Source: a virus. From it: a DNA stretch of 23,082 nucleotides. The notes beneath the pieces are model-generated. The model was not told where the DNA came from, ran no database searches, and worked only from the letters and a program-made list of their open reading frames with translations. Numbering within the stretch: position 1 is the stretch's first letter; every line of letters starts with the position of its first letter. Shown here piece after piece: positions 13,533-18,164 of this stretch. A program made the translations under genes and the position numbers. The DNA lies in IMG/VR virus record IMGVR_UViG_3300025093_000131, positions 1 through 23,082 of that record; one strand, written 5' to 3'.

Positions 13533-15002
13533 TTATACTAAATTATTTACCGATACAGCAAATATATTTGTTGTATCATAAGTTACCATACTAATTACAT
13601 CTGTAAGATTTGAACCAAGAGATGCAGTATAAGGTGATGCTAATGGAAACTTAAATTCACTATTAAAACTAACAGTTCCTGAACCAACTCCTGGTTGTTT
13701 TACTTTTAAACTTATAGTTTGACCAGCTTGTATGTTTGAACCTACTATGTGAGTATTAGAAGAATTAACAGCATTTAATACAAAGAAATTACCTTGCGAT
13801 AAATCCATACTTGCGGTTTGTGATGTAATTGTAAGTGTAATTACTTCTCCGTTTACTGAACCACTAAATGTATTATTCGTATCTGTTCTTGCATAAGAAC
13901 CAGTAGATGCAATCAAACTATTTACTTCATTTTGTAATGAACCTGTTTTTATTTCTATTTGATTTAATCTATTATCTGTTGATTGAGTATATGAATTAAA
14001 AGAACCTGTATCAACAAAGGATTGTTCTAAAGAAGAACTAAAGTTTTCTAATGCGGTTATTCTTGTATCAGCTGATTGTGTGAATGAATTGTATCCACTA
14101 TTAATTGTAAGTTGTGATGATGTAAATGCATTTAACGAAGAGGTTACACTACCTATCGTAGTAAATTTAGAATCAGCAGATTGTGTGAATGCATTGATAG
14201 AAGTTAATGAACTATCAGTAGATGAAGTAAATGAATTAATTGCGTTTAACGAACTATCTGTTGAAGATGTAAAACTATTAATACTTGCAAGAGAACTATC
14301 AACAGAACTCGTGTAAGTACCCAATACAGAGTTCCTAGCTTGTTGTGATGTTTCAAATGTTTCTAAACTATCTAATCTTGAATCTACTGATGTACTAAAT
14401 GGTCCTTCTAATTGGTCTAATCTACTATCTACCGATGCAGAATATGTTGTTACATTACCAATACCATTTACAGTTGATGAACTAATTTCACCACTTACAT
14501 CTAAATTACCTGTATTAGTTTGATTACCTGTTATACCTAATGAACCACTAATTGTAGTTTGACCTACAATAGTTTGTACATCAGTTATATCATCACCAAT
14601 AACATTACTACCACTTGAGAATATTACTGATGCAGATTCTTCGGTTACATGAAGTAATCTTGTATTGACTGTATCAAAGGTTGCAATCTCTGCGTTTATA
14701 TTACCATCAATTACTACATTACCTTTTATATCAATTGAACCTGAATGAACAAACGAACCACTAACATCTAAATTACCATTTAAATCTGTGTTTCCATTTA
14801 CTGTTAAATCCTTTTGTACTAATAATTTATTATCAATAGTTACATCATTACTTGTTGCATTAATCTTTACACCAACATTATTACCCATACCATCTTGTAG
14901 ATTTACATCTCCACTTTGTGATATTAGAGGTTGTGTTGAGTCTGCAAGGTTTATTAATCCCTTGTATGAACCTGATATATGTAAGTTACTTAAATTACTC
15001 AT
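13533..15002 (-). CDS. Coiled-coil tail fibre protein
   Basis: Of 489 residues, 1-185 are beta-rich with Gly turns (Val-Asn-Gly-Asn-Thr-Asp-Leu, Val-Ser-Gly-Ser), as in trimeric beta-helical fibres. Residues about 187-365 are built of heptads with repeating Ser-x-Asp-Ser-x-Leu-x-x-Ile, including four 14-residue copies at 231-286, predicted as a trimeric coiled coil. The last 100 residues form a compact beta domain closely resembling the end of the fibre protein at the right edge. Fibres of this type bind the host or connect other fibres. The gene starts nine bases after the tail-terminator-like gene. Confidence 0.65.
   Translation of the reverse strand: MSNLSNLHISGSYKGLINLADSTQPLISQSGDVNLQDGMGNNVGVKINATSNDVTIDNKLLVQKDLTVNGNTDLNGNLDVSGSFVHSGSIDIKGNVVIDGNINAEIATFDTVNTRLLHVTEESASVIFSSGSNVIGDDITDVQTIVGQTTISGSLGITGNQTNTGNLDVSGEISSSTVNGIGNVTTYSASVDSRLDQLEGPFSTSVDSRLDSLETFETSQQARNSVLGTYTSSVDSSLASINSFTSSTDSSLNAINSFTSSTDSSLTSINAFTQSADSKFTTIGSVTSSLNAFTSSQLTINSGYNSFTQSADTRITALENFSSSLEQSFVDTGSFNSYTQSTDNRLNQIEIKTGSLQNEVNSLIASTGSYARTDTNNTFSGSVNGEVITLTITSQTASMDLSQGNFFVLNAVNSSNTHIVGSNIQAGQTISLKVKQPGVGSGTVSFNSEFKFPLASPYTASLGSNLTDVISMVTYDTTNIFAVSVNNLV
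14145..14312 (-). repeat. Four 42-base repeats coding 14-residue coiled-coil units
   Basis: Residues 231-244, 245-258, 259-272 and 273-286 of the fibre protein follow the pattern Thr-Ser-Ser-x-Asp-Ser-Ser-Leu-x-x-Ile-Asn-x-Phe, the last copy being diverged. Looser copies occur on both sides. Two heptads per unit means the repeat can change length without breaking the coiled coil or the frame. Confidence 0.75.
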
Positions 15003-15011
15003 AGTTTTTTC

Positions 15012-15917
15012 TTATGTATATTGCCACTTTCTTATAGCTTCATCTATTGTTCCATTATTCCATCTCTCTGGTGTTGTATTCCAAATCTTTGGACTAGTCC
15101 ACAACTCACAAAGAGCACAATCACCAAAATCTTCATATGGGATTGCTAATACTGGTAAATTATAAAAATCATAATCATCTCTATCATTTACCTCTTTTAA
15201 TATTTCAAAACACCTAATGTTTTCGTATGATTCTAAATAACCATTAGGTCTTGTATCAGGTATATAGTTAGTAGCAAATATCTGCCCTATACTACCTGTT
15301 GTTTCTAATACTGCGTTATACAATTCATTTGTTTCACAATCCTTGACTTGGAAATATTGCCCGTCAGGAATTATCAAAAAAAAAAGGCAACGATTTTTAT
15401 CGTTGTGAACTGTGAGAGTAAATTCAGCACTCCAACCACAGAGCCCATTGTTAAATCTATCTGCAAATGGAGTACAAGCTATATCTGAGTTTATCTCCAT
15501 TCCATAGTTAGATTTTTGTGTATATGCAGTTAAATCGTTTAAGATACTCAATGTGTTAGCATGAATATCAACCACATCACTAGTCCCATCAAAAGGAACC
15601 ACTTGTTTATTTTCTCTTTCATTATTAGAAACATCATCTCTCATTATTTTTTGTTTATCAGCTACTATTAACTGAACTTGGTAATCAGTTGTTTTCATAC
15701 CAAAGTTAGCGTTTGTAATTAACACATTACCGATTGGGTATTGTGGAAATTCAGTAGCATCAAAATTAAATATATCACCTTGAGTTACCTTTGCAATACT
15801 TGGATGGTTCTTCATTATTGTTTTGAAGTAATTTAAAGTATTGTAATATAAAGAAAAGTTCTCTGCACTATTCTTTACAATCTGGCTTCTTGCTGGTGTT
15901 TGTGATGGTGTACTCAT
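15012..15917 (-). CDS. Tail-terminator-like protein with an extra C-terminal domain
   Basis: Residues 1-177 look like a tail terminator or tail completion protein: an N-terminal helix (Tyr-Tyr-Asn-Thr-Leu-Asn-Tyr-Phe-Lys-Thr-Ile), then Gly-Asp-Ile-Phe-Asn-Phe-Asp, Gly-Asn-Val-Leu-Ile, a core strand (Tyr-Gln-Val-Gln-Leu-Ile-Val) and a long helix (Asn-Thr-Leu-Ser-Ile-Leu-Asn-Asp-Leu). It closes with Ala-Glu-Phe-Thr-Leu-Thr-Val, where I would expect such proteins to stop. Instead the frame runs through a hairpin and ten T (15376-15405) into residues 181-301. This second domain has four Cys (194, 236, 267, 270), no internal Met and no recognised family. It is either a true fusion, a product controlled by slippage, or two genes joined by a homopolymer error. 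The start lies three bases after the connector gene. Confidence 0.6.
   Translation of the reverse strand: MSTPSQTPARSQIVKNSAENFSLYYNTLNYFKTIMKNHPSIAKVTQGDIFNFDATEFPQYPIGNVLITNANFGMKTTDYQVQLIVADKQKIMRDDVSNNERENKQVVPFDGTSDVVDIHANTLSILNDLTAYTQKSNYGMEINSDIACTPFADRFNNGLCGWSAEFTLTVHNDKNRCLFFLIIPDGQYFQVKDCETNELYNAVLETTGSIGQIFATNYIPDTRPNGYLESYENIRCFEILKEVNDRDDYDFYNLPVLAIPYEDFGDCALCELWTSPKIWNTTPERWNNGTIDEAIRKWQYT
15376..15405 (-). promoter_or_regulatory. Intragenic hairpin plus T10 slippery run
   Basis: On the minus strand CAACGAT (15399-15405), loop AAAA, ATCGTTG (15388-15394), then CC and ten T (15376-15385). This has the form of an intrinsic terminator, but it lies within codons 171-181 of the tail-terminator-like gene. 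Losing one T gives TGA at once (180-residue product); gaining one T gives TGA four codons after the run (184 residues). It may cause transcript slippage, partial termination, or both. Confidence 0.6.
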
Positions 15918-15920
15918 ATC

Positions 15921-16433
15921 TTATAATTGTATTCCTCCAAAGTATTGATTAGATTGGTCAGGGTAAATCATTGTAGAATCACCTGTACTTTCGTTGTATT
16001 CAGGTACATTCGTATTGTTTGCAATTAACCAATCTTGCATTCTTGTTGAATAATAGTCTGCGTTGTTCAATGCTTTGTTTAATAAATAATCAACTTCATT
16101 TTTTGTAGGAGCAACACCAGTTTCACTCTGTTGTTTTACTGCTCCATTTGATTTAAATTGTACCGAGCTAAATGGAAGATATTCTACACACGCATACCAA
16201 ATAAGGGTAGGTTTCACATATTCCTCTACAAGTGTTTGATAATAACCTGTAAAAGCAGTTTGTGATTCTACATCATCTTGTAATTTGTTGTAAAGAACTG
16301 TTCCTAATAAATTCAGTATGTATTTTTCTTGTGCTGTTCTAATAAATGGTAGAAGAGCATCTGCATCAATCGCTCCACCTAATGGTGTGTTCTTGATGAT
16401 ATCGTTTCGTGTAATTAATAATCCAAATGCCAT
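15921..16433 (-). CDS. Head-tail connector (adaptor) candidate
   Basis: The 170-residue product is helical in its N-terminal two thirds. It begins with a segment (Asp-Ala-Asp-Ala-Leu-Leu-Pro-Phe-Ile-Arg-Thr-Ala-Gln) followed by Tyr-Ile-Leu-Asn-Leu-Leu-Gly, a pattern I know from small adaptor-like proteins next to portal genes in Bacteroidota phages. The C-terminus is Asn/Tyr-rich and extended. It starts six bases after the portal gene and precedes the tail-terminator-like gene, the normal place for a connector. No motif proves the role. Confidence 0.6.
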   Translation of the reverse strand: MAFGLLITRNDIIKNTPLGGAIDADALLPFIRTAQEKYILNLLGTVLYNKLQDDVESQTAFTGYYQTLVEEYVKPTLIWYACVEYLPFSSVQFKSNGAVKQQSETGVAPTKNEVDYLLNKALNNADYYSTRMQDWLIANNTNVPEYNESTGDSTMIYPDQSNQYFGGIQL

Positions 16434-16439
16434 AATATT

Positions 16440-17702
16440 TTATTCATCTTTGTAGTATGACTCAAAACCAAAATCAGTTGGTCTTATAGGTTCATACTCT
16501 TCGTTAAACTCTTCTGTTTCTTCTCCTTCTCCACCTTGTAAATTGTCATCAATTGTTTCTTGTACTTCTTCTACTGTTTCATCAGTTTCATCTGCAGTTG
16601 TAGAAAGGATTACAAGAGGTGTAAGTTGCTCAAAATACAATTCTGATATATCAATACCACCAACTCTAAATAAGTTGTATAAACAGTTTATAATCAAGTT
16701 TTGGAAAGGGAATATTGTCATTGTTTGCATAATAGAATATGCAGTTTTCATTTCTTCCGATTGAGATGAGAACCCATTATTCGCAGTCCTAATACCAAAT
16801 AAAAGTGGTGATACTATTCTATGAGCTACGAGAATTCTATCTTGTGAGTATTCAGCAACATACTGATATTTCTCATGCAAGTTCTCCATCGGTAAGGTAT
16901 CAATCGTAGGTTTGTTTATTGCATCATCATTAAACGATACCATAAATCTACCTGCGTTTCTTGTACCTGTAAATTTCTGTTCTAATAAACTTTCTATTGT
17001 TTGTCTTTCTTCAGGTGCAGGAACTCCATTATTGAAATTAACCATTGCAACTGGTAAGAAACCATTTTCAATATTGTTTAAGTGTAAGTTAGATAATTCA
17101 GCTTCACTAAATGAGAATTGTAATGCAGAAATCCAATCAGGTAAAGAATAATAATATCTGTTAGGTTCATATTCTTTAACATAGTATATTTCTATCTCTT
17201 CATTAGATGAACCGAAAGCAGGTATAAACTTTTTATCTTTTTGTTTTCTTGTATCACTCCAATCAACACAATAGTAATATCCTTCTACTTTACCTAAATC
17301 GTGTATCTTCTTTGCTCTAAGATTTTGTACTGGTGTGTGATATAGTTTCTCAATCTTTGTATGTGATTCATTCCATATTACTTGGAATGCAGCATTACCA
17401 TATAATTTTAAATCAAAAGATACTTTCCTTAAATCTTCTGGTGGAATAATCTTATCTAATGATTGTTGTTTTAATTCTTCTTTCGTAAATAAACCTTTAC
17501 CATAAACTAAATCAGCAACTCCATCTACACAAGCTGCATTAGTTGTTGAAGTGTTATATGCTTCTGTTAATAAACCAAAATAATCATCTTGGTCTAATAT
17601 ACCAACTGGCACCCATTGATATCTTGTTTTAATATCTTCGTGAACAATAGGAACTTCTTGTCTTGAAAAGTTTACTACATTAAATTTCTGTTCGTTTTTC
17701 AT
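16440..17702 (-). CDS. Portal protein
   Basis: The 420 residues have the portal layout. There is an N-terminal clip-like region with Asn-Ala-Ala-Cys-Val-Asp-Gly-Val-Ala-Asp, a Leu-Lys-Leu-Tyr-Gly-Asn-Ala-Ala-Phe core (about 100-110), and His-Thr-Pro-Val-Gln-Asn-Leu-Arg. A wing follows with Asp-Trp-Ile-Ser-Ala-Leu. Then come Arg-Ile-Val-Ser-Pro-Leu-Leu-Phe-Gly and the long helix near 330-355. It ends in an acidic tail (Glu/Asp-rich, about 385-420). A ring of twelve forms the DNA gate of the capsid. The length is near the lower end for portals. The A-rich start has AAAAGAAAC before the ATG and no clear Shine-Dalgarno sequence. Unusually, it lies downstream of the capsid gene. Confidence 0.85.
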   Translation of the reverse strand: MKNEQKFNVVNFSRQEVPIVHEDIKTRYQWVPVGILDQDDYFGLLTEAYNTSTTNAACVDGVADLVYGKGLFTKEELKQQSLDKIIPPEDLRKVSFDLKLYGNAAFQVIWNESHTKIEKLYHTPVQNLRAKKIHDLGKVEGYYYCVDWSDTRKQKDKKFIPAFGSSNEEIEIYYVKEYEPNRYYYSLPDWISALQFSFSEAELSNLHLNNIENGFLPVAMVNFNNGVPAPEERQTIESLLEQKFTGTRNAGRFMVSFNDDAINKPTIDTLPMENLHEKYQYVAEYSQDRILVAHRIVSPLLFGIRTANNGFSSQSEEMKTAYSIMQTMTIFPFQNLIINCLYNLFRVGGIDISELYFEQLTPLVILSTTADETDETVEEVQETIDDNLQGGEGEETEEFNEEYEPIRPTDFGFESYYKDE

Positions 17703-18139: not shown

Positions 18140-18164
18140 AAAACCCTACACGAAGTAGGGTTTT
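18140..18164 (-). terminator. Strong terminator inside the late module, active form on both strands
   Basis: AAAACCCTAC (18140-18149) and GTAGGGTTTT (18155-18164) form a ten-base-pair stem with a five-base loop. On the minus strand the stem is followed by further T (complement of the A run reaching back to 18137), on the plus strand by TTTTCTTATTTT. It follows the tail-tube candidate, so it would cut back transcription after the capsid and tube genes, giving them more message than the portal and later genes. Confidence 0.85.

Follow-up and report, generated by a model that had tools for sequence, protein, structure and literature searches.

A few bacterial genes, IS elements and RNA viruses are already known to use programmed transcriptional slippage. 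In the dnaX gene of Thermus thermophilus (tau/gamma), a homopolymer lies in one open frame and unslipped mRNA gives the long product, while slipped mRNA meets nearby stops in both other frames and gives the short product (PMC5009743, PMC1088944). No adjacent 5' hairpin is described for dnaX in the literature examined (PMC5009743, PMC1088944). In Roseiflexus IS630, an RNA hairpin resembling an intrinsic terminator is located directly 5' of the slippage motif (PMC5009743), and slippage on T5C5, for which a GC-rich stem is required, restores the transposase frame. A third related case is provided by the extended major tail proteins of SPP1 and the lactococcal 936 phages, where one gene encodes a virion ring protein with or without an adhesin-like C-terminal extension (PMC6669499).

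The phage gene described here shares with dnaX a homopolymer in a single open frame flanked by stops in both other frames. However, dnaX is a cellular replication gene with A9 on the sense strand, whereas the phage site lies in a virion gene and has T10 on the sense strand and a 5' hairpin. The hairpin is placed as in IS630, but the phage run is a plain T10, the stem is weaker, and slippage would truncate the protein. Unlike SPP1 and 936, in which a ribosomal frameshift extends the tail tube protein, the long phage form is read in the zero frame and is terminator-like, and slippage would shorten it. Our literature search retrieved no report of programmed transcriptional slippage in a virion gene of a tailed phage.

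Gene neighbourhood and domains of the long protein

The window analysed is a viral contig of 23,082 bases, in which the gene of interest is located between a probable head-tail adaptor gene and a fibre-like gene (Table 1). The 301-residue protein had no match in Pfam, PHROGs or INPHARED, and a search of bacterial genomes found no relative. The sole cultured relatives of the portal protein are those of the Nonlabens phages P12024S/L (36% identity), in which no copy of the slippery tail gene could be detected in the region near the portal. The relatedness of the portals suggests flavobacterial hosts. As a separate observation, a scan of the plus strand identified a 10-bp stem followed by T-rich sequence at positions 18140-18164, which is intergenic and represents the best ordinary terminator-like site in the scanned region.

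Table 1. Coordinates of the features discussed in the text
Feature	Position	Strand	Remarks
Long gene, 301 aa: tail-terminator-like domain, linker and C-terminal module	15012..15917	(-)	Zero frame
N-terminal tail-terminator-like domain, residues 1-172	15402..15917	(-)	Foldseek matches; stand-alone gene in relatives
C-terminal module, residues 188-301, four near-invariant Cys	15015..15356	(-)	
Slippery run T10, codons CTT TTT TTT TTG (L178-F179-F180-L181)	15376..15385	(-)	Precisely ten T in 197 distinct long relatives
Hairpin CAACGAT-AAAA-ATCGTTG (7 bp), two bases 5' of the run	15388..15405	(-)	Folding and codon-level selection
TGA reached directly behind the run upon loss of one T	15374..15376	(-)	Would give a 180-residue product
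TGA if one T is gained	15364..15366	(-)	Would give a 184-residue product
Fibre-like gene, 489 aa, directly downstream	13533..15002	(-)	Conserved N-terminus MSNLSNLHISGSY
DUF6712 (PF20459) protein, probable head-tail adaptor, directly upstream	15921..16433	(-)	
Portal protein	16440..17702	(-)	

An AlphaFold model based on a 96-row alignment predicts two domains and, between them at residues 174-184, a linker of low confidence that contains the run. Foldseek matched the N-terminal domain to the tail terminators of Mu (E 3e-5), lambda gpU (probability 1.0), T5 p142 and others, with moderate TM-scores and for a model of medium confidence. The domain is thus predicted to have the tail-terminator fold, with the likeness to lambda gpU-type terminators covering residues 24-171; a hexameric ring and a position at the neck are inferred. 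The classical terminators of the lambda gpU type that were matched are not known to contain a slippage site or such a C-terminal module. The C-terminal module contains four near-invariant cysteines (194, 236, 267 and 270), which may perhaps form a zinc or other metal site, although this is inferred only.

A preliminary description of the locus had reported the hairpin, the ten-T run, reading frames giving 301, 180 and 184 residues, and an extension with four cysteines and no methionine, and all of these claims and numbers were confirmed. It had also guessed that the gene encodes a tail-terminator-like domain, which the fold match supports, and that both shifts cut the protein at the end of this domain, which is consistent with the break falling in the linker between the two predicted domains.

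Conservation of the ten-T run and of the stops behind it

On the minus strand, the order of the elements is CAACGAT-AAAA-ATCGTTG-CC-TTTTTTTTTT-GATAAT, and the sequence that follows the run (15385-15376) is GATAATTCCTGA. With nine T, the product would end in NRCLFF, and with eleven T in LFFFDNS, immediately before the stop in both cases. Peptide-pattern scans of the viral collection yielded 454 loci with 266 distinct family genes. These relatives are viral contigs that show 45-90% amino-acid identity, and it should be kept in mind that they are metagenome sequences from one family and not independent of each other.

Among the distinct long genes, 197 have T10, two have T9 (L055 and L161), one has T11 (L058) and seven have no run. 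A codon-neutral DNA scan for the motif ND[K/R]NRC-x-FF, covering at least 90 distinct sites, identified T10 at 89 of 90 and T11 at the remaining one. By the codon usage of the same genes, LFFL would be expected to be written as T10 in only about 6% of the cases; the leucine codon of the run is CTT in 100% of the genes, as compared to 14% elsewhere. No synonymous base change was inferred inside the run on a tree that totals 15 substitutions per site. On the same tree, nearby codons, except at constrained hairpin positions, change 18-35 times at their third bases. Finally, T10 is present at the site in 170 of 170 T10-class loci, and the rest of their 1.37 Mb contains only two T10 and one A10, which argues against chance. 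Selection on the run and on its exact length is thus shown, and the site satisfies our criterion for slippage, namely an A/T homopolymer of at least nine bases in an open frame that is conserved beyond the need of the protein.

Two rival explanations concern the run itself. Homopolymers are error-prone, and the ten T could result from an assembly error or from chance, with two separate genes as the true state. This can be dismissed with near certainty, since 197 distinct genes, drawn from many metagenomes, have the identical length and are without exception in frame, and the length error that the preliminary description had wished to exclude is ruled out by the same relatives. Alternatively, the run could be a phase-variable contingency locus, in which replication slippage toggles the extension on (T10) and off (T9 or T11) between phage genomes. 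In favor of this, both T9 contigs have T10 relatives that are identical across 468 nt ending just upstream of the run, and a T11 contig also exists. However, these three genes are single-base outliers among about 200 distinct genes, differences are confined to 5 of 150 near-identical pairs and all involve L055 or L161, and the alternative in-frame "on" states T7 and T13 never occur. The run length does not vary among close genomes as would be required of a phase-variable locus, and the codon bias of the hairpin (see below) would be left unexplained. We consider phase variation very improbable.

The stops behind the run are constrained in both shifted frames. If one T is removed, a stop follows immediately in 193 of 196 genes and one codon later in the other three, while the rate of an immediate stop after TTA or TTG codons elsewhere is 65%. 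By parsimony, some 30 changes have occurred at the two bases behind the run, and yet an A follows TTG in every case (70/70). With one T more, a stop is reached within six codons in all 196 genes, as compared to 59% elsewhere. Nearby stops in both shifted frames, as in dnaX, are thereby shown. By analogy with Thermus dnaX, the constraint on both frames would fit bidirectional slippage (PMC5009743, PMC1088944).

The most serious rival is programmed ribosomal frameshifting on CUU UUU UUU UUR, by which the short form would be made without any slippage of the RNA polymerase. U-rich heptamers are slippery for ribosomes and would give identical products, and frameshifting is common in phage structural genes with two products, such as lambda G/GT and the tail proteins of SPP1 and the 936 phages (PMC6669499). 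However, a -1 site needs fewer than ten uninterrupted T, and yet none has ever been lost. The hairpin is located upstream, where it would already have been unwound by the ribosome, and its position is the one from which nascent hairpins act on RNA polymerase. Furthermore, a directional site needs only one stop, while stops are kept in both shifted frames. Nor does the site behave as in a -1 frameshift of the lambda G/GT type, where the shifted frame opens an extension, as both frames stop immediately or within six codons. Ribosomal frameshifting is for these reasons unlikely, and slippage that is transcriptional and stimulated by the hairpin remains the most likely reading, although it is inferred and unproven.

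Selection on the upstream hairpin

The hairpin in the window has seven pairs with a free energy of -7.1 kcal/mol (z -2.5), and a search against Rfam gave no match. Among 100 conserved columns in the relatives, the three largest codon excesses are found at an arginine of the stem, at the leucine of the run and at a histidine of the stem. The stem arginine is encoded by CGT in 94% of the genes, as compared to 2% elsewhere, and the stem histidine by CAC in 98%, as compared to 29% elsewhere. The minimum free energy of the stem is -5.0 kcal/mol, as compared to -0.2 in synonymous recodings, which makes it more stable by 4.8 kcal/mol. A search among the relatives revealed no compensatory base changes, because the protein sequence is fixed here, and the support for the hairpin therefore rests on codon choice. 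At this level, selection on the stem beyond protein coding is shown, and the stem-loop is adjacent to the 5' side of the slippage motif, as required for a site of the IS630 type. Relatives with the same fusion but without the run or the hairpin had been named in the preliminary description as a refutation. This test did not refute the idea: where relatives share the extension, the run is retained, the hairpin is so in nearly all cases, and the conservation of both extends to synonymous codons.

The link between the hairpin and the slippery site needs to be amended in one respect. The hairpin is fully kept in the short paralogues of 38 tandem loci, none of which has a T run, and it must therefore have another role, at least there, which the slippage model does not explain. 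In the seven long genes that lack the run, the hairpin has mostly decayed (mean MFE -0.3 kcal/mol). In L033/L117, the stem arginine codon, which is CGA in close relatives, is replaced by an in-frame TGA just before T10, representing either a real nonsense mutation or a sequencing error.

The combination of a hairpin and a T tract also matches the consensus of intrinsic terminators, and features common to slippage and termination are on record (Penno et al. 2015, title cited in PMC5009743). The element could thus be a partial terminator that lowers the expression of the downstream fibre gene and does nothing else. However, the site is inside a translated gene of 301 codons with a conserved downstream half and not at the end of a transcription unit, where an intrinsic terminator should be placed. 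A terminator can work with an interrupted T tract and has no need of immediate stops in the shifted frames. The run is also absent from phages that have only the short gene, even though one lineage of these (L375/L377) keeps the fibre gene. A role as terminator alone is very doubtful, and the partial termination before the fibre genes that had been suggested earlier is not needed, because the short-only phages lack the T run. It is possible that some transcripts terminate at the hairpin and T10 as a side effect.

Short forms, fibres and the proposed mechanism

The short form is shown to exist as a gene of its own in relatives, and that the truncated protein is functional is inferred from sequence alone. 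A separate short gene lies immediately before the long gene at 38 loci. Such tandem duplications, with the short copy first, are seen in L069, L076, L081, L192, L210, L221 and 32 other loci. The tandem short genes have no T run and end in NRCLFELY(PN) or NRCLFELM, 2-5 codons past the slippage point. Other phages have only the short form (16 distinct genes), again without a T run and with the same end residue, and a search of these short-only phages for a stand-alone gene for the C-terminal module found none. Four module-bearing genes lack T10, namely L403, L401 and L408, each accompanied by a separate short gene, and L389, which has none. A separate short gene is thus associated with 3 of 4 module-bearing genes without T10 as compared to 35 of 193 genes with T10 (p=0.02, uncorrected for kinship). 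The idea that a separate short gene replaces slippage as a general rule was rejected, as 35 of the 38 phages with such a gene retain T10. In L358, L441 and L442, a short-type terminator gene is fused without a T run to a different, Thr-rich extension.

The presence of the module is linked to fibres or adhesins. Among the T10 loci with readable downstream sequence, 178 are followed by a fibre gene whose N-terminus is conserved, while the next gene encodes a gp10-like neck protein in 12 of 14 short-only phages, the exception being the single fibre lineage mentioned above. Six T10 phages have longer extensions of 314-1092 residues with Lcl_C, glycine-rich, LamG-like or Thr-rich parts; the Lcl_C matches are below the Pfam cut-off, and the LamG-like part is what we take it to be from reading the sequence. 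The adhesin-like continuations through the T10 site are those of L302, L305, L378, L231, L269 and L296, the longest reaching 1092 aa. Their T9 and T11 products would remain at 168-172 residues, and in five of the six a gp10-like gene follows directly and there is no fibre gene (classifiable loci). Since a fibre gene or an adhesin fusion accompanies the module, the module may serve to display fibres or adhesins at the neck, a possibility inferred from sequence alone. The co-variation between the module and the fibre N-terminus beyond that of the N-terminal domain was weak (distance correlation, partial r 0.10), and docking therefore stays an inference.

Taken as a sequence-level argument, programmed slippage at T10 is strongly supported, as the preliminary description had proposed, while slippage of the RNA itself is inferred without RNA data. 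In the mechanism that we propose, the host RNA polymerase would copy the ten T with the nascent hairpin forming two bases behind, and slippage would create mRNAs of mixed run length, with ten U, fewer or more. The mRNA with ten U would be translated into the 301-residue protein with the terminator domain and the C-terminal module, and mRNAs with a frame-breaking number of U into the bare terminator domain, of about 180-184 residues here and about 170 in relatives. The terminator ring at the head-tail joint would incorporate both forms. There, the long form would use its module to bind the fibre that the next gene encodes; in some relatives, the module itself continues into adhesin modules. That the run serves to make bare and module-bearing terminator subunits, probably through hairpin-assisted slippage of the RNA polymerase, is in our judgement likely, with the mechanism inferred in the absence of RNA or protein data; the ratio of the products and the mixed ring are likewise inferred. 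In a bolder reading, which we find as easy to doubt as to believe, a large group of uncultivated tailed phages would share a fixed device for hairpin-assisted slippage of the RNA polymerase. This device would set the fraction of terminator subunits that bear a fibre-docking or adhesin module, giving a mixed neck ring from a single gene.

Annotation pipelines give only the long protein for these genes. If the proposed mechanism is true, the family would provide about 200 natural slippage cassettes, losses and duplications included, on which the effects of hairpins on RNA polymerase could be tested. A DNA phage would then have a new means of tuning the stoichiometry of a symmetric ring, through slippage in place of the ribosomal frameshifting seen in lambda and SPP1.
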